Source of the DNA: Aurantiochytrium sp. KH105
Taxonomy: Eukaryota; Sar; Bigyra; Thraustochytrida; Thraustochytriidae
DNA length: 64,000 bases
Assembly (NCBI GenBank): GCA_003116975.1
Contig: BGKB01000015.1
Location: 310,001-374,000 of the forward strand
Reading direction: 5' to 3'
Part shown: piece by piece, positions 28,902-45,800 of the stretch
Position numbering within the stretch: the first letter of the stretch is position 1
How the letters are laid out: each line of letters opens with the position of its first letter
Made by a program: the position numbers and the translations under genes
The notes under the pieces: model-generated
Told to the model about the DNA's origin: nothing
Seen by the model: only the letters and a program-made list of their open reading frames with translations
Database searches by the model: none

Positions 28902-30706
28902 CTACAACAGATCCGAACCACTTGGCGGGACAAAGCCTGCAATTTTCATTTCCGATGCCGGGGTCGCGCCGCGAGGGGCGCTTGGGGGTACTGCGTACAA
29001 AGCCATGGCCTTGTACGACTCACCCATGCCGCGAATCACTTCTTCCGTGTCTTCGTCAATAAAGTCGCCTTCGACGAGACGCTGAAAAGCCATAAAGATT
29101 TCCATTTGCTTCTCCTCATCTGGCTGCGCATGCAAGAGCGTACCAATGCGCGTCTCAATTCCCATGTTGCGCAAAAAGCTTCCCTGTGTCAGCGTCTCTG
29201 AGATTCTCACGGGATTCGACATTTTCGACGCGACTTGCTGAGCCGCATAACGCAAAAAGTGAAAGTCCACGTCTGCCGAAAGGTCCACCTCACCGGGCTC
29301 GGTGAGCGGATGCACAAACGCGTGCTTTTTGATCCCGCGCAGACTGCTCCGCGCAGCACCGTTATCACCATAGTCAATCACGAGCGCTGCGCCGCCACAC
29401 TGTGACAGACACTCGGTAATGTCTTGCATTAAGGCAGCGCCCACTGCACACACCTCGATGGCATCTCCCTCGACCAGACCCACGTCGTCCTTGCTCGCAG
29501 TCTTCTCGTGTAGTGAAAGAAGCATCTTGGTTGCGGGAGTCGGCTTTGTAGAAAGCACAAAACGAAAGTGATGCAGCTTACGCAGCGGTTTTTCCGGATC
29601 CACGTCAGCCTCTGCCACGGTCGGGGCTAGCGGCTCCACATCCACAAGTCGCTCGACCCATTCTTTCTTCTTGTTCACCTCAAATTGGTGCACAGGCAAG
29701 GCGTCAAATAACTCCTGAGCGACGACCAGCGTTGGTGTGTTGTTGTTTTGCTTGCGCACATCGTTAAACTCGCGCATCCACTCTACCTTGACGCTGCGAC
29801 TTTCAATGTTGCCACGCTTACCCAGCGGCCCAAACAGAGGTGCACGCATGGAAAGACGACCTGCTTTGCGAGCAATCTCCCAAACATCATCCATGTGCTT
29901 GGCCTGCCCCTGCATGTCCATGCGCTCTTCGTCGCCCGAGCCATTCGCTGGGGAGTTCTTGCGCAAATCATCGTCCTCATAGGAAGGCACAGCGGCGCCG
30001 CTCGTGAATGTGCAGCGGAGTTTCTTTTGCTGCAAACGCCGAAGCACTGGACTTGTCTCAACCATACGTACACCGTCGCCCTTTTGCAGGGCGCGGCAAA
30101 AGTCGGGAAAGCTGCTTACCGCGCGCAAAAGGTCGCTCATGAGCGTTCCGCGTCCCGGGCCCAATTCAACGAGGCGTACAGATTCTGGAGAGCCCATGGC
30201 CATCCACTGAGAGACGCACCACACGCCAATCAGCTCTCCAAAGACCTGACTAATCTCCGGCGAGGTTGTAAAGTCGCCAGCCTTGCCAAAGGCGTCACGC
30301 GTCATGTAATAACCGTACTTGGGATGTCCGAGGGCGACCGTCATGAATTCGCTCATGGATACGGGGCCACGGGACGAAATGCGAAGTTTCAATTCGTCGA
30401 CAAGCGGCGTCTTTTCGGACTGTGTTGCTTGTTCTCCCGGCGCCAGGGTCTCGGCTTCCGCGCCGGGCACGGGCTCCGTTGCCACCGACGGCACGTTCAC
30501 AAGGCCGGAGCGGTCGATCTCGATGCTGCGCAGTCGCTCTTCCGCGCCTTGGAAGAGTTCCTCGCGGGCCTTTGCTCGCACCCGGACCTCGAGCTCCTCC
30601 CCATTCTCCTCGCCTGCATCCTCGCGCAGACCCAGCGGCGACGGCGGCAGATCCTTTGTCGACGTCGGCCGCGACGATGACAATGTTGACGGAGGCCTCG
30701 GCGGGA

Positions 30707-30738
<32 letters not shown>

Positions 30739-30824
30739 CACAGAGCGCGTGCACGAATACGCGGCACCCGCGCGTACTTGCCACGAGTCGCCGCCGCCGC
30801 CACGAGTCGCGCTGTTGTGGACAT
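28902..30824 (-). CDS. NDUFAF7: Complex I assembly factor / protein arginine methyltransferase NDUFAF7 (MidA)
   Basis: 640 residues from ATG 30824. NDUFAF7 symmetrically dimethylates an arginine of the NDUFS2 subunit in the mitochondrial matrix, an early step of complex I assembly. The first 60 residues (ARLVAAAATRGKYARVPRIR then a Ser run) look like a mitochondrial presequence. The family block begins with DELKLRISSRGPVSMSEFM, followed by HPKYGYYMTRDAFGKAGDFT and TSPEISQVFGELIG. The S-adenosylmethionine loop is VELGPGRGTLMSDLLR. Further landmarks are VVAQELFDALPVHQF and ALVIDYGDNG. The chain is longer than the human protein (441 aa) through the N-terminal region and an insert near 290-330 (NSPANGSGDEERMD). 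A TATATA element lies 48-55 nt before the ATG. Confidence 0.94.
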
Positions 30825-32049
30825 CGTGATGCGAGGTCTGGCTGGACGAGACGTGATGGCACTAATCACTACTATATAGCCGTGCCATTCTGCCGGGACC
30901 GAGAAATTCGACAACATCGTCAACATTGCTTTCATTCTCACGACGACTTGAAAAGACATGGGCGGATGAACGAAAGCCGTTTGGGTCATGCACGGCACGA
31001 TCTTTGCGGTTGCAGTAAGCCTTTTTGATGGTTTTCAGAATGATGTCGAGCATGTCAGAATTTCGGTTGCAGCGGCCTTTTCGAGTCTCGCCTTCTGAGA
31101 AGCGCACGCACAGGTGGTTGCTGCGGATGTATCTTGGTAATAGATCCTTGCGCGTTGGACGCGAGTTTGCGCACCGACGTTGAGTGCAGTCCTTTGAGCT
31201 AACGCGGGCGAGAATGGAGTGAGGACTTTTTGTTTTGCAGAAATATGCAAGGAGTGCGCAGATTCAATAAAGAGCAACGTGGCTTTGGAGGAGCGAGGAA
31301 TCACAGCGAGGACAAAAAAAAGGTGATTGAATTCTTCTTCCAAAGCTCGATTTAGCAGCAAGCGAGTCGCTCTGGGCAGCTTGCGTGCCTTGACTTTGGT
31401 GGCTGTGCTTCGTGGACAACGGTAGAAGAAGACGAGCGAGCTGTGCAGCGACGAATTCCAAAATGATCGAAGCGAGATACGTGAAGTGAGTGCACCCCCT
31501 TGAGGGCGACGCGAGAATAAGGTGAGTGGTGGCCATGGCGGTGTCAGTATTTCTTTTCACTCCGGCAAAGTGAACAGCTTTCATGGACTTGAAGACTTTA
31601 CGAATTCAATCTCTTTGCTGCTCTACTTCGCAGACGGACAAATTGCTTGCCAAGCGAGAGGACGCATCGGCCAGCGGCAGCCTGGGGGCTTAGGTGATGG
31701 CTTCAAAATTTTGCAGTGCGTGGGCGAGCGTACGTTCGCTCGTAACACTGCTTGGCGCAAGATCTTGCCATTAAGATCGGCTTAAAAGCGAATAACGAAG
31801 ACAAAGAGAGCATCAAGGGTGTCGAGCGCGAGCGCCGGCGGCGTGAGAGGAGCAGAGGTCCAGGGCGTAGCTGTGTCTGGCGACCTGTGGCGAGCCCAGA
31901 AGACTGTTTCACGCTGTTTGACAATAGCAAATAAGGCCAAGAAGACCGCAGCAGCGTCTTGGGCCTCGGCGACCACTTCAGGTCTCAGGATGACACTCTA
32001 TCAAGACAGTGAGATCGATAGATGACGGTAAACATGTTCTCAGCATTTG
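30825..32049. other. Intergenic region holding the 3' flank of the kinase-RING gene
   Basis: From about 31160 this is the downstream flank of the 32050-36154 gene and is duplicated at 36435-37296. A 106-codon frame on the minus strand (31264-31584) has a counterpart in the other copy. No confident gene. Confidence 0.5.
30872..30879 (-). promoter_or_regulatory. Candidate TATA box of NDUFAF7
   Basis: CTATATAG (palindromic) ends 48 nt upstream of the NDUFAF7 ATG, at a distance compatible with a short 5' UTR. Assigned on position and sequence only. Confidence 0.4.
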
Positions 32050-33215
32050 TTATTCAAAACTGAAGTTGTCGCCGACAATGTCCGGCGTTAGGAGAGGACG
32101 CAATTTGTTCTGAACGCTGGCACGTATGCCTGCGTCTTCAATCTTCTCCGCCATGTAGTCGCGAAGACGCTGCGCTCGAAGCTGGCCCCATACTTGCCGC
32201 ACAACGTGCTCTTGGCCAAAAAAACGATCTTCGCCAGCAGGCTTTGACGCACAACTCGCCACATGTTGATGACAAGCTTGGGAGTCGTTGCCCGTGTCCT
32301 GTAGACACCATGCGCAAAAGTAGCATGGGCAGGTGCCACATTTGACAGCACAGCAGTCGCTAAAGTCAACGAAAACTGTCGAGCAACGGGGGCATGAGAC
32401 ATTCAAGACCTCGTTCTGGATTGTGCGAATGTGATTCTGCGTCGTCGGGTCCAGCCCATGTTCGCGGAGTGCGGCGTCAACGCGATCACGGAGCTGACGC
32501 TCTTGTTCAGCTGCGGCGTCTCGCTCAAAATGCTTGCGCACTATACCAAGCAGAGCTGCAAAGTCCTCCTTAGGAACCGCGGACGCAATAGCATGTCCCG
32601 TGATGAGGAGCTCACAGTCTGGAGTGACACAGCACATGCTTCCATCTCGTAATACGTTGACGTGCGCATTAGGCTGAGTAGCCGCACGTACTGACCCGCT
32701 CAGGCACTCTTTGCACGTAAAGTGATCATCAGCGCAAGAGACGCCCTCGCCGATGGGGAAAATGTCGAGGCAAATGGCACACGAGGCCTGCTTTACGGGC
32801 TCAACCTGAAATGCTTCGTGACGCAAGGCCTCGAGCGCAGTGGGCCGCTGTGTTGGATCTGCAGACTGCAGGGACGAAATGAGCGACTGCAAAGCGTCAG
32901 ATACCTCTTTGTTTTCGAAGAGGTCCGCGAGGACCATTCCCGCGGAAAAGAGATCCACGGCAGACTCTACCCTGTCGACATTTTCGCGACGAAGCTCAGG
33001 AGCCATGTACTTGAAGGTGGCTTGCATGTGCTGCGTCATGGTCACATTGTGCATTTGAACACCATCAAAATCCCCTAGCACAGGCGACAGGCCTGGGGCG
33101 AGGAAAACATTCTCTGGCTTGACGTCGCAGTGCACGAAGCCTTGCGAGTGCAAGTCGTGTAGACCAGACAGAAGACCGATCGCAATGCGTCTACGCGTTG
33201 CCAGGTCTGCATGCG
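31160..33215. repeat. Segmental duplication, copy A (3' part of the kinase-RING gene plus flank)
   Basis: Direct repeat of about 2.05 kb matching 36435-38455 in the same orientation. Similarity begins near the shared GAGTGCAGTCCTTTGAGC-like string and ends at AGGTCTGCATGCG on the right (33203-33215). Most of it is roughly 80-90% identical by eye, with one much closer tract at 31814-32183. Confidence 0.85.
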
Positions 33216-36154
33216 GGGTGTCGCGGACCCAGGAGGCAAGATCGCCGCCTGAATAATATGGCATCAGAGTGCATCCCTGGTGGGCATCTTGCATGAACAC
33301 GCCTTGGATGCGCACGATGTAGGCTGATTTGATCTGAGCAAGCGCTGCGACCTGGCGATAGAAACGACTGCTCCACTCTTCGTCGGCGAGATGAAAGGAC
33401 TTGAGCACAAAGTCCTGGCCTTTGAGATCGCGTACTTTAAGCACAGACTTGCCGGGTTTAGATGCAAGCTTTGCGAGGGTCTCAAAGTCACTGCGCTTTG
33501 CATTCGCCAACCAGAGACCCAGCATGCACAGTTCTCGGGGTATGCTATTGTTCACGCCCAGGCTTTTGACCCACTCCTGATCTCGGAGCAACTCAGGGTA
33601 AAATTCTTCCGCGTACCTCAGCACCTGCGTGCGCTCTTTGCGAAGCTCGCTGTCCAGCTTGTAAGCACTCCCAAGCTGAGCAAGCTCTTGCTCGAGACCG
33701 GGAATCCGAGCTCGTGCTTCTGTATCTCCGTCATTGGCATCCTCGCGGGCGTAGCGAAGATCTTGTTCAAGTCTTTCTCGCTTACGCCTGCTCTGGCGAA
33801 GTCTTTGCATTGTATCCGTCACTCGTGATGTGTCCGGTGCCGTGAGCCCAGGAACTTGCTTGGAAAGGGAACCTGACAGGTCTTCTGCGGCTTTTTGTAA
33901 GCGCGAGACCTCGTTTTTCACTGTGCAAGTGTAAAATGAGATGGTGTTTGCTAATGCACGCCGCACCTCCTTCAACGGGGCGTCTGCCATGGGATCGACG
34001 CTTGTTAAGTTGCTGAGCTCTGCTCTCAGTGCTTGTTGTACGTTTTGTAGCTCCATCGCGACATGCCTTGTCTTTTCGGGGTGTCGCAACGTCATAAAGA
34101 ATGTCGCTTGGATACCGAGGCGTTTTGTACTCTCATCTAAAGCATCAATAGCTGCCTCGGTACGCTTTCGCGCAGCGCTCGTGTCGTGCCGAGCCTCCCA
34201 GGCCTTAATAGCCTCTACCGCGTCTCGCGTTGCTTCCTGCACTTGGTCAAAGGTGATTGGCACGACAATAGCGTCAAAGTCCATAGGTTCCTCCAGGACC
34301 TCCTTCCAAAGACTATGACAGGTGTCTATCACGGTTCTGATTCTTGGATCTGAGAGTATGATCTCACATTGACCTTCGATCCCACCTGACAGAGCATCCC
34401 GAATGCCCGTGACAAGGTCGCTTCGACTTTCGTCTCGTTTGGTAATCTTTTTCGAGTCCGTCTTGACAGCTTCTTGAAGCGCAATCAGCTCCACTTCTTT
34501 TCCGCGAAGGATGGCTTGCTGCCTATCAAAGTTTGCCAGAGATGCGACCGGGTCCTTGCGCAACAGCTGCTCAGCAAAGAAGTCGTGCAGCCTCGGATGA
34601 AGAATAGGTTTCTGTTCATTTCGCTTTGTCCTTGCGAGTGAGATCTTTTGCGCGAGTGCCTCGAGATTGACTGTTTGCCCAGAATACGCGAACAATAGGA
34701 GCAACTCACGGCGATCTGGCGCACTTGGTATCCCTAGTTGCTCAAGACGAGCAGAAGTGAGATCGTGCGCGTCACCCAGCGTTCGCACACCCTCATCGAA
34801 GAGCTTGACAACCATCACTCGCAGTTCGTTGTTGTGGAGATGTTCCAGCGGTAACGAGTTTATGAAAGAAAGAAAGGTGGACAGCTCCATGCGGTTCTCG
34901 GAAGAAACATGCGCAAGAGCCATCCCAATCCCGAGGGAGTCGCTCGAAAGACCTGCGCTGTGCTCAAAAAGAAGCTTTGCAAGAAATAGATCGTCTCCAT
35001 CCTCTTTGAATTTGCAAGCGTAGATCATTGGGGTGAGGCCCAGTTTGTCACGCGCATCGAACTGTACCCCGTCCGCCACGAGCTTCTTTGCCCTCGCAAG
35101 GTCGCCGTTCTTGCATGCCTGCATGAAAGGCGTCTGGCTCTTTTCGTACAAATCTTGGGCGCCGTCGAAAATGGCTTCGGGCTCTGTGTCTCCGTTGCTG
35201 AAAGTTTATAAAAGAACGAACGTCAGAACATGAAAGGTGTTGCAAACTCCATCGTTTCTGTGTAACTTACTCTTGCGAAAGCAACGACGCCGCCACGACG
35301 CTCCGCGGCTGCTGCAAGCTGCCCTGTACACCCCGCGCCACCTCCAACATCGTCGCGAACTCCAGGAACGCGACGGCGTCGGCGCGATCCCAGTACTTGG
35401 CCAGCGCCAGCGCGTTCCGCCCGTTCTTATGTTTCAAATGCAGGTTGGCACCCGCCGCGTAGCAGAGCTTGATGCAGCGCAGGAGACCCGACGTGGTGTG
35501 ATGCGATTCAAATGGATGACGACATGCCATCATGAGCGCGGTGTATCCCTCGTTCTGCTGCAGGTCAAGCTTTGCGCCGCGCTTGATGAGCAAGTGGGCC
35601 GTGTCGGGCTGGTCGTAGCGGCACGCGAACATGAGCGTGGTCCATCCCTTGTTGTCCTGTAGGTCAAGCTTTGCGCCGCGCTTGATGAGCAAGTGGGCCG
35701 TGTCGGGCTGGTTCTTCTGGCACGCAATCATGAGCGCGGTCCATCCCTTGTTGTCCTGAAGGTCAAGCTTTGCGCCGCGCTCGATGAGCAAGTGGGCCGT
35801 GTCGGGCTGGTCGTAGCGGCACGCGAACATGAGCGCGGTCCATCCCTTGTTGTCCTGAAGGTTAAGCTTTGCGCCGCGCTCGATGAGCAAGTGGGCCGTG
35901 TCGGGCTGGTCGTAGCGGCACGCCCACATGAGCGAGGTCCATCCGTAGTTGTCCTGTCGGTCAAGCTTTGCGCCGCGCTGGATGAGCAACTGCGCGATGG
36001 CGGGCTGGCCCCCGGAGTCTGGATGAATTGCCCACATGAGCGGCGTGTGCTTATTCGTCGTCACCGTCGCGTCGAGCAGGGCGGGGTCGTCCTGCACGGC
36101 GCGCTGCACGCCGGCTAGGTCGCCGTTCTCGATGAGGACGCGCATGTCCGCCAT
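32050..36154 (-). CDS. Ankyrin / SAM-like / protein kinase / RING-RBR fusion protein (two exons)
   Basis: Exon 1 is 36154-35271, exon 2 is 35197-32050, with a 73-nt GTAAGT..CAG intron between. The splice joins ...SLLSQ to DNGDTEPEA in frame and gives 1343 residues. Seven ankyrin repeats fill about 1-270, another ankyrin pair about 312-390. A SAM-like segment (LTSARLEQLGIPSAPDRREL) lies near 440-460, then a long helical region. The kinase domain spans about 875-1090, with lysine in FVLKSFHL (Lys894), HCDVKPEN (Asp986) and GDFDG (Asp1004). RING1-type ligands follow (Cys1101, Cys1104, Cys1116, His1120, Cys1123, Cys1126, then Cys1151/Cys1156). A RING2/Rcat-like module reads CPRC...DCCAVKCGTCPCYFCAWC. 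RBR modules transfer ubiquitin via a catalytic Cys. No IBR is recognisable between the two. No membrane span or signal peptide. Confidence 0.85.
35564..36000. repeat. 99-bp tandem repeats encoding identical ankyrin units
   Basis: The string GTCAAGCTTTGCGCCGCG (one copy GTTAAGC) recurs at 35564, 35663, 35762, 35861 and 35960, spaced exactly 99 bp. Each unit encodes one 33-residue ankyrin repeat, nearly identical in DNA, inside exon 1 of the kinase-RING gene. Confidence 0.95.
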
Positions 36155-37296
36155 CCTTGCGCACGCGCGCGGTGCCGTGGCGTGGGCGAGGCGCGCGGGT
36201 CTGGCTCGAGGGCGGCGGTCGGGACGGGCTGGGGAGGACGATGAAGACGGAGATGGAGACGGAGATGGAGACGGAGGAAAAGATTATGTAGCCCCGCGGT
36301 GAGCCGACTCCAGTTTGAAAGTAGATCAGTCAGCCCTGACTAAAAGTCCAAGCGAGTCCAAGTCTAAAAAATTGACACGGTCGTCGCGCACGACCCACCG
36401 ACCACTGCCCCGAAGTCTCAAATTTGTGCGCACGAAAATGGACGCAAGCTCGCGCATCGACGGTGAGTGCAGTCCTTCGAGCTAACGCGGGGGAGAATGG
36501 GTGAGAACTTCGTTTTGCAGGAATATGCAAAGAGAGCGACGTGGCTAGGAGCGAGCCGTCACAGCGAAGACAAGAATAAAGGCGATAAACTTTTTTTCTC
36601 GAGCCAAGCTCGAATCAGCAGCAAGCGAGTCGCGCTGGACAGCTTTGTGTGCCTTGACTTGGCGGCCGTGCTTCGTGGACAATGGCAGAAGAAGTAGAGA
36701 GAGCTGTGCAGCGACGAAGTCCACAAAGATCGAAGCGAGATGCGTGAAGTGAGTGTACCCCTTGAGGCGACGTGAGAAGTAGGTGGCGGCCATGGCGGTG
36801 ACAGTGCTTTTTCTACCTCCGGCAAAGTGAACAGCTTTCATGGATGAGTTTACAAATCCAGCCTCTTTGCTGCTCTACTTTGCAGACAATCAAATTGCTT
36901 GCCAAGCGAGATGACGCATCGGCCGCAGCCTGGGGGCTTGATTGATGGCGTTAAAGTTCTGCAGTGCGTGAGCGAGCGTACGTTCGCTCATAACACTGCT
37001 TGGCGCAACGTTATTGACGCTAGGATCAGCTTCAAAGCGAATATCGACGATAAAGAGCACCAAGGGTGTCGAGCGCGAGCGCCGGCGGCGTGAGAGGAGC
37101 AGAGGTCCAGGGCGTAGCTGTGTCTGGCGACCTGTGGCGAGCCCAGAAGACTGTTTAACGCTGTTTGACAATAGCAAATAAGGCCAAGAAGACCGCAGCA
37201 GCGTCTTGGGCCTCGGCGACCACTTCAGGTCTCAGGATGACACTCTATCAAGACAGTGAGATCGATAGATGACGGTAAACATGTTCTCAGCATTTG
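36155..37296. other. Promoter of the kinase-RING gene and 3' flank of its partial copy
   Basis: 36155-36300 holds a GGAGAT hexamer repeat (about 36245-36272) just upstream of the start codon. From about 36435 the sequence repeats the downstream flank of the functional copy, including a 98-codon minus-strand frame (36545-36841). Confidence 0.5.
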
Positions 37297-38455
37297 TTAT
37301 TCAAAACTGAAGTTGTCGCCGACAATGTCCGGCGTTAGGAGAGGACGCAATTTGTTCTGAACGCTGGCACGTATGCCTGCGTCTTCAATCTTCTCCACCA
37401 TGTAGTCGCGAAGACGCTGCGCTCGAAGCTTAGCCCATGCTTGCTGTACAACAGCGAAATCGCTAAAGAATGGGTCCTTTTCGCCAGCAGGCTTTGACAC
37501 ACAACTCGCCACATGTTGATGACAAGATCGTGAGTCGTTGCCCGTGTCCTTCAAGCACCATGCGCAAAAGTAGCACGGGCAGGTGCCACATTTGAGAGCA
37601 CAAAAGCCGCTAAAGTCAACGAAAACTGTCGAGCAACGGGGGCATGAGACACTTGAGATCTCATTCTGGATCGTGCGAATGTGATTCTGCGTCGTCGGGT
37701 CTAACCCATGCTCACGAAGCGCTGCATCGAGACGAAGCTGAAGCTGACGCTCTTGTTCAGCTGCGGTGTCTCGCTCAAAATATGCGTGCACTATGTCGAG
37801 CAGAGCTGTAAAGTCCTCGTCTGGAACCGCGGATGCAATTGCACGTCCAGTGATGAGAAGCTCGCAGTCTGGAGTGACACAGCACATGCTTCCATCTCGT
37901 AGTACGTTGACGTGCGCATTAGGCTGAGTAGCTGCACGTACAAACCCGCTCGGGCAACCTTTGCACGTAAAGTGGACATTAGCGCGAAGGGTGGGAAAAT
38001 TGTCAAGGCAAATGGCACATGAGGCCTGCTTTACGGGCTCAACTTGAAAAGTCTCGCAACGCAAGGCCTGAAGCGCCGTGGGCCGATTTGTTGGATCTGC
38101 AGACTGCAGGGACGAAATGAGCGACTGCAAAGTGACAGATTCTTCTGTGTTCTCGGAGAGGTCCGCGAGGACCTTTCGCGTGGAAAAGAGATCCACAGCA
38201 GCCTCTATCCTTTTGACATTTCTACTGCAAACCTCAAGGGCCATATACCTGTAGGTGGCTTGCATGGGCTGCGTCATGGTCACATTGTGGCTTTAAACAC
38301 CATTAAAATCCCCTAGCACAGGCGACAGGCCTGGGGCGAGAAAGACATTCTCTGGCTTGTCGTCGCAGTGCACGAAGCCTTGCGAGTGCCAGGCGTGGAG
38401 TCCAGAACAAAGACCGATTGCAAAGCGTCTGCGCGTCGCCAGGTCTGCATGCGAG
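36435..38455. repeat. Segmental duplication, copy B (partial)
   Basis: Direct copy of 31160-33215 placed upstream of the parent gene in the same orientation. The right-hand junction is at AGGTCTGCATGCG (38443-38455), after which similarity stops inside the kinase domain. Confidence 0.85.
37297..38455 (-). pseudogene. Truncated copy of the kinase-RING gene
   Basis: Starts abruptly inside the kinase C-lobe (HCDDKPEN in place of HCDVKPEN), reads DFN where the parent has DFD, and then has an in-frame TAA about five codons later. Downstream, 328 codons remain open to the same C terminus as the parent (...LTPDIVGDNFSFE). The RING1 module has lost the Cys/His-spacing segment around parent Cys1116, so zinc binding there is probably broken. 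The RING2-like module (CPRCSTVFVDFSGFCALKCG) keeps its cysteines. It lacks all ankyrin and N-lobe sequence. A shorter RING2-only product is possible in principle, but there is no promoter evidence for it. Confidence 0.82.
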
Positions 38456-40679: not shown

Positions 40680-42758
40680 CTAGCTCCCGAATTCGCCCCG
40701 ACGCGAGTTCGAGGACTCGCTGGCGCTCTTGTCTGTGACCGGAAGAGGAAAGCCATCGAGGGAGGGAAAGTCATTTTCATCATCCCCGTCCTCTCCGTGA
40801 CACCCGCAGGCATCCTTTTCCTCGTTTGCGTCGTCATTAGCCACGTTTCCATCTCCATTGTGTGCGCTGCTGTCTCTACCTGATTGCTGTGTCAATCGAG
40901 GCGCTGGAGGACGACCCTGATGTGCCGCGGCAGTGTTTGCAGCCTCCGGTGCCGAGCCTCGGCTTGCGGCCACAGCTTCATGATTTTCAGTGGGGCCGCG
41001 TGTTGGTGCCGGCGGGCGGGGATTTGCAGGCGGACGAGGACGAGACCCTGCGATCCCTGGCGCAGGTGGTCTCGTTGGCCTTGGGGCAGGCGCTGGAGCT
41101 GGAGCTGGCATGCTGGTCGACAAGTCATTGCCAGCATTCTTGATTGCGGAGCTCTCGCTCTCGATCATTGACGCCTCGAGTGCAGCTTTGAGCGCGGCAT
41201 CCTCGATGTCGCTCTCGTCGCCGTCATTGTCGCTAACATGGCACAATTTAGCATCGTTGCTAAATGCCCCAGTCGTACCCCCCTCGTCCGCCTTTACGTT
41301 TTTTGCATGCGTAGCACTATCACCGTCATCATCCTTTTCGTCATCATCGTCATCGTCGTCCTGGTGACGATCATCCGATTTTTGGTTGTCGCTTGGAAAT
41401 GAACTTTGTTGCAGCGCATCGTGAAACTCCGCATCCAGCTCGTCTGTGCTCACCCCTCCTTGAGCGCCAGCAATTGTCGATTCGCCTGAAGTACCCTGGG
41501 CTTCCGCGAGAGAAAGTTGGATGGCGTGACGCAGCATAGCCTCTTCGTACACGTCCTCTGAAGCGCCAGCAGCGGCTCCGGGTGGGACAGCGCCAGAAAA
41601 GGAGGCTGAGGGCGAGCGTGCGCCCGGCGAAGCCATGGGCGGCGGCATGGTATAGTTGAGCGCAAAGTCAAAATTGCGCGGGTCGGCGTGACCCACAACG
41701 TCAGAGTCTTGCTCCGTGGTCGAGATGAGCGTATTGTAGAGAAATATGCAAACAGAGTCGATAAAGAATTGAGGACGCGACGAAGAGTGGTCGCCGGGGA
41801 AATTTCTCAGGTTTTTGTCCCCGGCGTAGGCGTCATAGAGCTGCTGCGAATGGTGCGGCAGGATAAAATGGTCTTCTTCACCATGTCCAAAGAGTGCCGG
41901 TATAAAGGAGGTTTCTGCGTGCTTGATGGGCTCTAGCTTGAAGATGTCAAAGTGGGCACGCGAGCGCACGCTGTTACGCACCATGCGGAGGGCCATGCCC
42001 ATGAGAAAGTGCGGCACGTTGACTTCGGAACTGAGTTCTTTGGCGAGCTGCTTGAGTGAAGCAAAGGGGCTGTCCAGCACCATGGCGGCAATGCTCGGGT
42101 CACGCTCTGCGAACATGAGCGCGGTCGCTGCGCCCATGCTGCGGCCCCACAGACCAATGCTGCTCGTTTTGCCGGTGGACCGCAGGTGGTCCACAACGGC
42201 CTCGAGGTCCTCGCGCTCGTACCAGCCCAGCGAGATGTACTCGCCTTCAGAGTGGCCCGATCCGGCAAAGTCGAAGGCAAAGAGGGTCATGCCACTGGAG
42301 AGGATGTGCGGTAGGGTCTCGAGGGCCTCTGCGCGGCAGCTCGCGTTGCCATGCAGATAAATGACGCAGGGTTTGGGGTGTGCGCCTTCCTCGCTGAGGG
42401 ACTTTGGTTTCCAATGCGAGCATGCTAGCCGCTGGTCTCTTTTGTTGCGGAGCCATACGTCCTCGCGTTCGAAAATGACGCCGTCCACTGTGAAGGCCGT
42501 CGGCCCGAGCACGGACTCGGAATACTCTGCGCGAGGGGGGCGGATAATGGCATGTACAAGTTCTTCGTAGCCTCCGCGCACCATTTGCCAGTAGCTCATG
42601 CGCGGGGCCTGCTCGAGCAGCGCGGCATCCGACGAGTCATGCTCCGCTTCGCCCGAGCTCGTCGACGCACGCCGCCGCCGCCGTCGCCGCCGCGACCGGA
42701 GGCTTCCCTCGCTGCCGGCCTCGCCGGACCCGTTGTGAGCGCCTTCATTCGCGTTGAG

Positions 42759-42789
<31 letters not shown>

Positions 42790-42881
42790 TTTGCGCGGCT
42801 CGCGCCGCTGCTGCGCGCGCCGCCGGGGTCGTCCTGCGGCGCGCCGCCGCCGCCGCCCTGCTTGCTGCCGCGCGACCCCAT
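40680..42881 (-). CDS. Alpha/beta hydrolase with ubiquitin-interacting motifs
   Basis: 733 residues from ATG 42881. The N terminus MGSRGSK is a potential N-myristoylation signal and leads into a Gly-rich, then Arg-rich, linker. The alpha/beta hydrolase domain spans about 125-385: oxyanion region VIYLHGNA, nucleophile Ser248 in GRSMG, acid Asp337 (HGEEDHFI), base His365 (PGDHSSSRP). This arrangement resembles the ABHD13/17 group (serine hydrolases, some of which are protein depalmitoylases). The tail (385-733) carries two good ubiquitin-interacting motifs, EEAMLRHAIQLSLAEA (446-461) and EDAALKAALEASMIES (560-575), a weaker third near 482-496, an Asp run (508-519) and Pro-rich segments. Hydrolase plus UIMs suggests a membrane-tethered enzyme that recognises ubiquitinated partners; substrate unknown. 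Confidence 0.85.
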
Positions 42882-45800
42882 GGTCGCGTCTGCAGCCCTC
42901 GCTCGTGTGCGTGTGCGTGGGCGTGTGGGCTTCTTCTTACCCTGCTGCGATCGCCCTGCTGGCTACCTATTATTACCATACCTACTAACATCCATCATGA
43001 TGGCAGCCGCAGCAGGGCTGTATACATACGTACGTACGTACTACGTGTTCTGGACAGGGGTCGAGTCTCGTGACATGACAAATTGTGGAATGTTCACGTA
43101 TACGTGTACACTGCCTTGCGGGGCTTTTGTCTTTTTCCTGGCGTTGTACTGCGCGCACATCGGGGACATCTCGCAGTATACATTTTATTTTTTGCCAACG
43201 CAAGAGGGAAAGCATAGCGTGAACTTGCGAGCGCCTTTGCGCGTCGTGCGTGATGTAATCAAGAGTACGTTGCTACATTAATCTGCACTGCCTGACAACC
43301 TGGCCGACAATCAAAGATCCAAGAGGGAATAAAGAGTACCCGTGAAAAAATGGAGTGTTTCGTCGTAGGTACCTGCAGGCCGACATGCGCGCTTTGTCTC
43401 AGCCTGCGTCACCTTGACTAGCGAGTGGGACCTGTTAGGATTGCGCTGGAGACATCGAGCTTTGATTGGGTTTCTCCGGAGCTGTACTACTTTGATCGAC
43501 CGCGAGATAAGAGTATTTCTGTTTTCTGAGTGAGGAAACCTCATTGACTGTTTGTCTTCTGAAAAGGAACGTATGCGCTCACTGCATCATTACGAGATCG
43601 AAACTTGGCCGGTCTCGTAGAAGCAGAGAATGCTTTTGTGAAACGCTTTTCGTGAAACGCTGAAGCTCATTTATCTTCTATTTCTTCGAATGACAAAGCA
43701 TAGTCGACGCGCTGCATGATTGTGACATTGTCGCCGTTTGATTCACTCAAGACGTGATGGCCTACGACAGACAGAGCGAGAGGACATACAAGGGTGAATT
43801 AAGCTCGATGCCACGCGAGATGAAATACACAAACTTTTTCTGAATTTTAAGGCACGATCACCCAATCCAACAGTGGCGGGAGATGATGATTTGGCATGAT
43901 CAGCTCTCGCTGTCACGCTGATCGCAAGCAGTTTCCTCGCTCCGCAAACGTAGAATACTCGCCACAATGGTGCGACCAGCCACGAAAGCAATCACGGGGA
44001 CGCTCGATCTCTTCGTCCCCGACTAGCGAACAATGTGGGGATTCCCGACCGTCAAAACGCCAGCCACCATGGCCACCATGGCCACTGGCCAGTCATTAGT
44101 GGCAGCCGGACGACTCAATGATAGGCGAATCGCGGCGGAAACAGTCGCGATGGCGTTGGCCACGGCGGCTTCGTCGGCTGGCTGGCTGGCCTCCGCAGAC
44201 CAACGTCACGAGAAGAGTCGCGCATCGCCAGTGAGATCAAGGCATCCATTCCAAAGACCATCTTTGGTGTCTTTCGAGCAGCCGCCAGCAGTGGGGCAGA
44301 GGTCAGACTATGGCACGCGCGGTTTCCGCGTCTCTTCCCCTTTTCCCTCTTCACTTGCCCCGCATAGCAGTCCCTGTGGCTAGCTGGCCGTGAAATGAAA
44401 CAGAAGCAGCTTTTCATCACAGAGTTTCCTTCCTCGCCTCGCCAGCTCCTACAAGGGTGTACAGTCGGAGTTTCTACGGACCCAGGTCTTGTATCCGCTG
44501 CATCCACACCGGACCCAGCGCATTACGTCCACGTACTGCACCATTATATGCCAGATTTTGCCGGCGGCTCTAGGAGAAAAGCCTTGAAGACTCCTACACC
44601 ACCCCCCTTGTGTCCTCCGGGAGAGCGCTCTCAGGCGCTTCCCCGCGTCCCCGCCGCGCCCGCGCCGCGCCCTGCGCCACCCTCGCGCGGCGCGGGGGCG
44701 GGCCCGCGCGGGCGCGGCGNGGCGGGGCGCGCTGGCCCGTCCTGGCGGCGCGCGCGCCGCGCGATGCGCGCGGGTCCCGCGCGGCGTCGGCAAAAAGAGC
44801 GCACGCGAGCCCAAGGTCAACGCCGAGCGGGGCCTGGCGGCCGTGCTAATCTTATTCCCGCGCCGCCCGGCCCCGCGCCAGGCCCCGCCCGAGGCCCCGC
44901 GCCCAGAGGCCGCGCGCGAGCGTCCCGGACGCGCCGCCGCGGCGCGCGCGAGCCAGCGCCGGCCAGCCGGGCAGCCGCGACGTGGCCTGGCGTGCCGTGC
45001 CGTGGCGTGCCGCGCGAGGACTGACTCACTCGCTTGGTTATTGACGACGACGACAAACCTCTTCTGCATATGCCGCATCCTCGACGAGAACGAACGGCGG
45101 CGAGCCGAGGCGAGGCGAGCAGCGCAGAGCCGCGGCCGGGCCTCGCGGCAGGTGGCGGGCAGGCCGCTTCGCGCGGCGCCGCACCTCGGGCCTGGAACGA
45201 GTCAGGGGTCCACATGTGCCCGGCGAGGCCTCGGCGCCAGTCCTCGGCTTGTGTTTGTTGCTAGTAAACATGGTAACAGTAACAGTAACCACGCGGAGGG
45301 TGTGTATGGGCCAGGGAGGGCCTACCGGTTCTCGGTAGCTGGGGCTAGGATGGGGTCGGGGGCGTGGTCTGTTTCTGGGGCGCACGGACCTGAGGCCGTG
45401 GCCTTGCGCTGCGATGGACACGGACCGAGGAGCATTGCTTGGGAAGAACGCATGAGAGGAGAAGGAAGAGCGAGGACTCTCTGCGGAGAATGAGATTGAT
45501 AGAGATGGCGACATGTAGTGAAGAAGCTTCATGCATGTATGGGGCACGTTACGCTTGCAAGTTTCGGCATGTCTCGCGCGGTTTTTGCTTTTGCTCTAGA
45601 TGGACGATTGGGGGTTGCTTTTTGCACTCCTCAAATCTCACGTTATAAATCGCAAAGTTTGTCTCGCGATCATGATTTACACAAAAGAACTGACTCTTGT
45701 GTCCACTCCTTTCTCCCTCCACCTGTGATAAGAAGCATGTCATTACCCTTTTCTTGCTTTTTGTCAACAGAATCGGGGCAAGATGGAGAATTTTTTTTTT

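Follow-up and report, generated by a model that had tools for sequence, protein, structure and literature searches.

What kind of gene joins an ankyrin-repeat array to a protein kinase and two RING-like zinc modules, and does it stand alone? The question is raised by a window of 64,000 nucleotides from Aurantiochytrium sp. KH105 (contig BGKB01000015.1, here C15:310001–374000), in which an earlier note, made from the letters alone, had described such a polypeptide on the minus strand at 32050–36154. The single odd polypeptide proved to be the wrong unit: the window gene belongs, as an ankyrin-type copy, to a large and diversifying family, in which variants with leucine-rich repeats (LRRs) and with TIR domains also occur. 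Judged from the sequences, we consider it fairly probable that this family encodes sensor–kinase–E3 receptors of an immune type for non-self, which do without a nucleoside triphosphatase (NTPase).

One gene of a large family

The window gene is real. The list of open reading frames of the window gives two minus-strand frames, 32050–35205 (1051 aa, stop to stop) and 35267–36283, which the earlier note had joined into one gene. The joint holds: a 73-nt intron with a GTAAGT donor from 35270 and a TTTCAG ending at 35198 keeps the frame, and the coding sequence from ATG at 36154 to the stop at 32050 is 4032 nt long, in frame, and encodes 1343 aa plus stop. The joined model is more than chance because 36 of the 44 family loci described below have an exon 2 that is open from end to end. 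In all 10 ankyrin-type copies, the exon-1 frame stops at a GT donor 54–117 nt before the onset of exon-2 similarity. Four of eight ankyrin-type paralogues (L009, L010, L012, and L020) have an AG in the matching phase at the corresponding junction; the other four have an in-phase AG 4–52 nt upstream of the junction, which is weaker support for the splice. The parts of the gene are as follows.

35271..36154, minus strand: exon 1, which holds the start codon and an array of ankyrin repeats with a period of 99 nt (stretches of 198 nt are 85–91% identical to the reference copy)
35198..35270, minus strand: intron, 73 nt, GTAAGT...TTTCAG, phase 2, splitting the codon GA/C (splice motifs; paralogue support)
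32050..35197, minus strand: exon 2, ankyrin tail, SAM-like part, helical part, kinase, and RING1–linker–RING2 (open frame; family comparison)
34624..34938, minus strand: SAM-like segment (weak, family-level matches)
33487..34623, minus strand: helical or coiled region (helical nature judged from sequence)
32806..33486, minus strand: protein kinase domain (Pfam and motif alignment)
32614..32781, minus strand: RING1-type zinc module, C-x2-C-x11-C-x3-H-x2-C-x2-C-x24-C-x4-C (ligand spacing and profile match)
32395..32613, minus strand: Cys-free 73-residue linker where IBR/BRcat would sit, probably helical (helix only in a low-confidence model)
32251..32394, minus strand: RING2/Rcat-like module, with the catalytic-position Cys codon at 32353–32355, aa 1243 (Cys spacing; family alignment)

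Profile searches and family comparison bear out the domain order first read from the window, namely, ankyrin, SAM-like, kinase, RING1, and RING2-like. Pfam gave Ank_2 at 3.3e-44 in exon 1 (8–10 repeats in the protein, counted by eye) and Pkinase at 1.3e-28 in exon 2, and no RING, IBR, or SAM model in exon 2 up to E 1. No SAM match was found in the window protein itself in the family search; eight of the 12 family members searched matched SAM_2, with 2.4e-4 as the best value, and the top matches of the segment in a PDB profile search were SAM domains at E 0.05–0.09. The helical region had no solved relative in the structure search (best E 0.24). No hydrophobic leader was seen in exon 1, read without a predictor.

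The genome searched, which is the one that contains the window, comprises 76.0 Mb in 367 contigs. The exon-2 search returned 50 rows, which were grouped into 44 loci. Exon 2 is unbroken in one piece from residue ≤16 to ≥1048 at 30 of these; at six others it is open with extra in-frame sequence (about 180 nt near residue 369 at five, and a partly repeated stretch at C15:895774), and the remaining eight have a stop in exon 2 or are partial. A search with the 256-aa RING part, in which 147 candidates were scored and all counts are lower bounds, gave at least 150 rows, with at least 59 stop-free copies spanning residues 14–252 or more, at least nine near-complete copies with stops, and many fragments. 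We examined 22 stretches of 5.7–9.9 kb around copies. The assembly seems to hold both haplotypes, as judged from second copies of flanking genes (98%) and near-equal pairs of polyunsaturated fatty acid (PUFA) synthase pieces; if so, a haploid genome has fewer than 44 loci.

The members carry two types of arm on a common exon 2. A single ankyrin exon precedes exon 2 in 10 copies (the window gene, L009–L013, L019, L020, L029, and L030), and 13 copies without an upstream ankyrin exon (L014–L018 and L021–L028) have tandem LRR exons instead. The LRR units are mostly 231–273 nt apart, and each is a phase-2 exon of 84 nt, preceded by AG and followed by GTAAG or GTGAG, that encodes one LRR of the RNase-inhibitor (RI) type. 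There are 97 LRR exons in the 13 loci (1–17 per locus; 96 distinct), the arrays of L021, L023, and L024 ending at a contig end. Ankyrin and LRR exons meet exon 2 in the same phase, which is phase 2. In L026, 17 LRR exons spliced in order with exon 2 form one frame that matches LRR_6 at 7e-83, and its spliced LRRs found RNase inhibitor and NLRP structures in the PDB, as well as 5irl/5irm, which we take to be NOD2. A candidate leader exon was found at one (L022) of eight LRR loci searched. In a tree of 21 exon-2 proteins, the supported branches force at least three ankyrin/LRR changes (L028, with a TAA in exon 2 and 468 aa, was left out of the tree and of the dN/dS estimates). As the tree reads, either the arm is exchanged on the chassis or the chassis is converted between loci.

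A truncated copy, which the earlier note had not mentioned, lies next to the window gene.

37297..38292, minus strand: 5'-truncated tandem copy, late kinase to stop (RING1 deletion; Phe at the catalytic Cys position)

This copy is likely a pseudogene. The gene and the truncated copy are 99% identical at their 3' ends and flanks (window stretches 31807–32106 and 37054–37353) and 85–90% identical in other shared blocks; recent gene conversion probably took place between the two.

Several further observations were made on the copies and their surroundings. L058 (C6:499600–504500) and a second copy in L012 have an in-frame insert of about 63 residues near exon-2 residue 369, mostly hydrophobic and of low complexity; the gap pattern suggests that five family copies carry it, and it is possibly an extra intron. 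A distant relative, L053 (C33:494800–498600; a similar place exists on C47), retains ankyrin repeats, a RING2-like block and what looks by eye like a SAM segment; it has no RING1, and in its kinase-like part, by eye, HSF stands in the place of HRD and PFD in that of DFG. Pattern searches for viral and prokaryotic relatives gave 49 and 6 matches, none of which was confirmed by tblastn; with two peptide patterns each, these are weak negatives. Among phage records, 27 had a match, and the 20 matches listed cover the kinase part only, at 24–29% identity. A subtelomeric position was considered: the distance to a contig end is at most 30 kb for 33 of 44 copies (19.9 expected), and for 17 of 25 in contigs longer than 200 kb (4.1 expected). 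This excess is at least partly due to assembly breaks because three LRR arrays (L021, L023, and L024) are cut by a contig end, and another contig end coincides with the start of an ankyrin exon in L017; no exact (CCCTAA)4 telomere repeat was found in the assembly. The PfaA-like PUFA-synthase pieces, which may hint at a labyrinthulomycete, score 930 bits at best, below the curated cut-off of 1010, and weaker matches occur in 11 of 14 control genomes. The minus-strand frames flanking the gene in the window, 28902–31034 and 40680–42962, are by eye one NDUFAF7-like and one hydrolase-like.

Variation in the arms and between alleles

The variation of the arms is concentrated at few positions. Within the LRR arrays of single loci, introns (gaps of ≥220 nt between LRR exons being left out of the counts) differ at 0.106 of sites. 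The proportion of nonsynonymous differences (pN) is 0.64 at codons 2–3, the xx of L-x-x-N, and 0.12 at the other codons. These two codons show 17 and 15 amino acids, and presumably lie on the exposed concave strand of the repeat. All 10 loci that have four or more LRR exons show more difference at these codons than in introns, by a factor of 4.2 to 17.8 (L021, L023, and L024, with fewer, were left out of the per-locus table). At the DNA level, the diversity of the LRR exons is 0.47–0.70 at bases 5–10 and 0.65 and 0.47 at bases 83–84, with an intron mean of 0.116; values of 0.63–0.64 occur at some other bases too, among them 16 and 34. Among the 49 ankyrin repeats from ten loci that fit the regular expression used (others were left out), the most variable positions are 33, 1, 2, 4, 9, 12, 13, 18, and 24, several of which we take to be positions randomised in designed ankyrin proteins. 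This pattern suggests an immune or self-recognition receptor.

The same data bear on a plainer explanation, in which an expanded kinase–E3 family serves ordinary signalling, its repeats bind internal partners, and their variation comes from unequal crossing-over or gene conversion with little selection. The many fragments and stop-bearing copies, which amount to birth and death, fit this explanation, and the proportion of synonymous differences (pS) at LRR codons 2–3 is also high, 0.48, so that the pN excess is no clean proof of selection; saturation, or a mutational process aimed at the bases of these codons, may be at work. Under neutral homogenisation alone, however, exons and introns would be expected to be similar to about the same degree, whereas codons 2–3 differ about six times more than introns, with an excess at every testable locus. 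We judge ordinary signalling to be quite improbable.

Alleles provide a second view of this variation. Contig C6 carries second copies, 98% identical, of the stretches that flank the window gene on both sides; their order is unchanged and their spacing similar (10.4 and 10.6 kb), and the C6 allele is also an ankyrin-type member. Identity between the window and C6 is 88–90% next to the gene and 69–93% in 300-nt bins inside it; the exon-2 protein of C6 is 75% identical to that of the window gene and 80% identical to that of a gene on C57. At the C61/C129 locus, identity is 97% in the flank and 83.9% over the final 961 nt of the gene; in this final part, the C129 allele is closer to five of nine other sequences compared than to its C61 partner. 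A third allelic pair, C183/C151, has a flank of 97% identity. Thus, the genes at both loci compared are about 80–84% identical within flanks of 97–98% identity, and the two alleles of a locus differ about as much as paralogues do. Such alleles would result from balancing selection, from conversion between loci, or from a strain mixture in the assembly. The mosaic identity of the window allele and the position of the C129 allele among other loci fit the gene conversion called for by the ordinary-signalling explanation.

Divergent alleles inside nearly identical flanks are also what would be seen if the arms recognised partners of the same species, in allorecognition or mating compatibility as in fungal het/NLR genes. 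In a study of fungal NLRs, their ankyrin repeats are described as conserved, length-polymorphic, positively selected, and tied to non-self recognition (PMC4986451). The loci of the present family are many and dispersed, not one or few, and a large TIR repertoire fits defence as well; we hold a role in allorecognition, which overlaps in mechanism with the immune-type receptor, to be unlikely.

The TIR repertoire concerns the family itself and the genome around it. One of the 21 RING-bearing copies, L017 on C343, continues past its RINGs with a TIR domain (TIR_2, 6.4e-15), and the copy on C229 (L056) also ends in one (3e-13). At least 150 places in the genome score above the TIR_2 cut-off, both haplotypes counted. 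An immune or non-self role is favoured because of this TIR setting. Other TIR-related places were also inspected. L055 (C16:576700–580000) encodes a Roc-COR protein in which a TIR domain follows COR. L057 (C51:43400–48100) encodes a TIR–NPHP3_N NTPase–WD40 protein with 11 WD40 stretches in near-identical repeats, which recalls fungal NWD NLRs. For a third TIR place (L054), the stretch examined gave only a different gene. L027:8207–8590, beside an LRR-type copy, is 71–88% identical to many places that overlap TIR matches, so that the TIR family and the sensor–kinase–RING family may be neighbours.

The kinase and the zinc end

The kinase and both RINGs are under constraint, and the SAM-like part and ankyrin tail are less so: the median dN/dS is 0.14 for the kinase, 0.14 for the linker, 0.17 for RING2, and 0.22 for RING1, and 0.38 for the SAM-like part with the ankyrin tail. 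In an alignment of 13 kinase sequences, the VLK Lys, the Asn, and the DFD Asp are kept in all 13 and the catalytic (HRD) Asp in 12. Gln occupies the presumed αC Glu position in all 13 (position set by eye), and no GxGxxG Gly-rich loop was found in the kinase domain of any of them. The phosphorylation predicted in the earlier note thus keeps its catalytic residues and becomes less sure on account of the Gln and the missing loop.

The zinc end was compared among 17 sequences, including the outgroup proteins L051 (with PDZ) and L052 and the truncated window copy, and the RING1 and RING2 ligands are largely kept. The spacing of the RING1 zinc ligands in the window gene is what we take to be the RBR type, and the RING1 profile search found the RING1 of RNF216 at 5e-5. 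Pfam with the RING part alone gave only zf-RING_2 at E 0.11, and with the whole protein or the RING part gave no IBR match. No Cys/His module was found between RING1 and RING2 (residues 69–143 of the zinc module); the absence of an IBR stated previously is thus upheld, a 73-residue linker taking its place. The RING2 spacing is C-x2-C-x9-C-x4-C-x2-C-x4-C-x2-C, with an extra Cys nine residues past the second ligand, and presumably matches RBR RING2s such as those of HOIP and parkin. The Cys at the catalytic position is present in 21 of 21 RING-bearing copies and in 16 of 17 aligned rows, including both outgroups, the exception being the truncated window copy. Of the two adjacent Cys residues that had been assigned to the catalytic position, only the first belongs there; the second is off position. 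In the RING2-region profile search, the ordinary RING of RNF4 is the best match (0.0018), followed by the RBR RING2s of RNF31 (0.26), parkin (2.5–3.4), and cullin-9 (6.7). The Rcat reading therefore rests mainly on the Cys spacing and the conserved extra Cys, on which the Rcat-like block is retained at the sequence level. The zinc end looks like a minimal RBR without BRcat. Such a RING1–RING2 module would be a natural test of the purpose of BRcat.

The departures in the kinase lead to the possibility that the protein is a scaffold and not an enzyme, a pseudokinase with RINGs that only bind E2 or zinc, on an oligomerising platform. The Gln, the missing Gly-rich loop, and the lack of BRcat are in line with this, as are the HSF and PFD motifs in the related C33 protein without RING1. 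The retention of the Lys, Asn, and DFD Asp in every kinase sequence and of the catalytic Asp in all but one, the invariant catalytic-position Cys of the RING-bearing copies, and the low dN/dS of both domains argue for active enzymes. A scaffold, which would be compatible with a receptor role, appears doubtful to us.

Relation to known receptors

Here, we propose how the immune-type receptor might work. The N-terminal ankyrin array, or the LRR array in the sister genes, would form the variable surface for binding. Oligomerisation is probably the task of the SAM-like and helical parts. The output would consist of the kinase and the RING1–linker–RING2 module, plus TIR in two copies, with phosphorylation coupled to RING/HECT-hybrid ubiquitin transfer via Cys1243. 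The receptor is probably cytosolic, as suggested by the lack of a visible leader in exon 1. We infer ligand sensing and the immune role from the arms and their genomic setting. Several points weigh against this proposal. Repeat proteins serve many non-immune tasks. The pS is raised at the LRR codons as well, and in the ankyrin repeats pN at the variable positions (0.33) barely exceeds pS (0.29). L020 and L029 form long branches in the tree, and the three arm changes may be one gain and two losses. At the output end, the Gln and the missing loop of the kinase and the RNF4 match of RING2 are joined by an AlphaFold2 model of the RING part (input, two window copies only) with a mean predicted local distance difference test score of 37, in which the fold is not readable.

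As to known systems, the family shares the RING1 match to RNF216 and the weak RING2 matches to RNF31, parkin, and CUL9 with RBR ligases, and is unlike them in that it has no IBR/BRcat, a kinase in the same chain, and LRR and TIR variants. ANKIB1 also joins ankyrin repeats to an RBR, according to one report (PMC3940038). For the LRR-ROCO candidate immune receptors of brown algae, a study describes phase-2 exons that each encode a single LRR, together with shuffling and with positive selection at positions of the concave face (PMC11378527). The LRR sisters of the window gene also have one LRR per phase-2 exon. The brown-algal exons are 72 bp long on a Roc-COR chassis, whereas those found here are 84-nt RI-type LRR exons on a kinase–RING chassis, and the ankyrin repeats of the window gene sit in one exon; Pfam gave no Roc-COR GTPase in the window protein up to E 1.

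The study of fungal NLRs with ankyrin, WD, or TPR repeats reports highly conserved repeats, repeat-number polymorphism, selection at specific positions, and modular domains, and reports no LRR motifs there (PMC4986451). Unlike NLR/STAND receptors, the window protein has no NACHT or NB-ARC NTPase match in Pfam up to E 1. As read from its domains, the family would nevertheless be NLR-like in the broad sense of a variable repeat sensor joined to putative signalling domains. The LRRs of vertebrate NLRs and RNase inhibitor are reported to be of the RI type with strict exon modularity (PMC6642158). The LRR sisters are like them in their PDB matches to RNase inhibitor and NLRPs; the exons of NLRP3 are 171 bp long with two LRRs, and the present family lacks the STAND NTPase. 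The earlier remark that no enzyme with the full architecture is described agrees with our searches of the open-access literature, which found none (not proof of absence). The logic resembles that of fungal NLRs and brown-algal LRR-ROCO genes, and the chassis is new within the open-access literature searched.

A bolder version of the receptor proposal is that a unicellular eukaryote keeps an anticipatory repertoire of receptors that work without an NTPase switch. Cassettes of LRRs and of ankyrin repeats would be swapped and re-diversified on the kinase-plus-minimal-RBR chassis, possibly by targeted (even somatic) mutation or by cassette splicing at the concave-face codons, and one locus would give many specificities that end in ubiquitin signalling. 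We regard this as highly speculative and the least probable of the readings considered. If the receptor proposal itself is true, a diversified family of immune-type receptors can use kinase and ubiquitin-ligase output in place of the NTPase switch known from NLRs, and a single chassis accepts ankyrin or LRR arms. If the host is a stramenopile, the one-LRR-per-exon logic of brown algae would recur there on another chassis.

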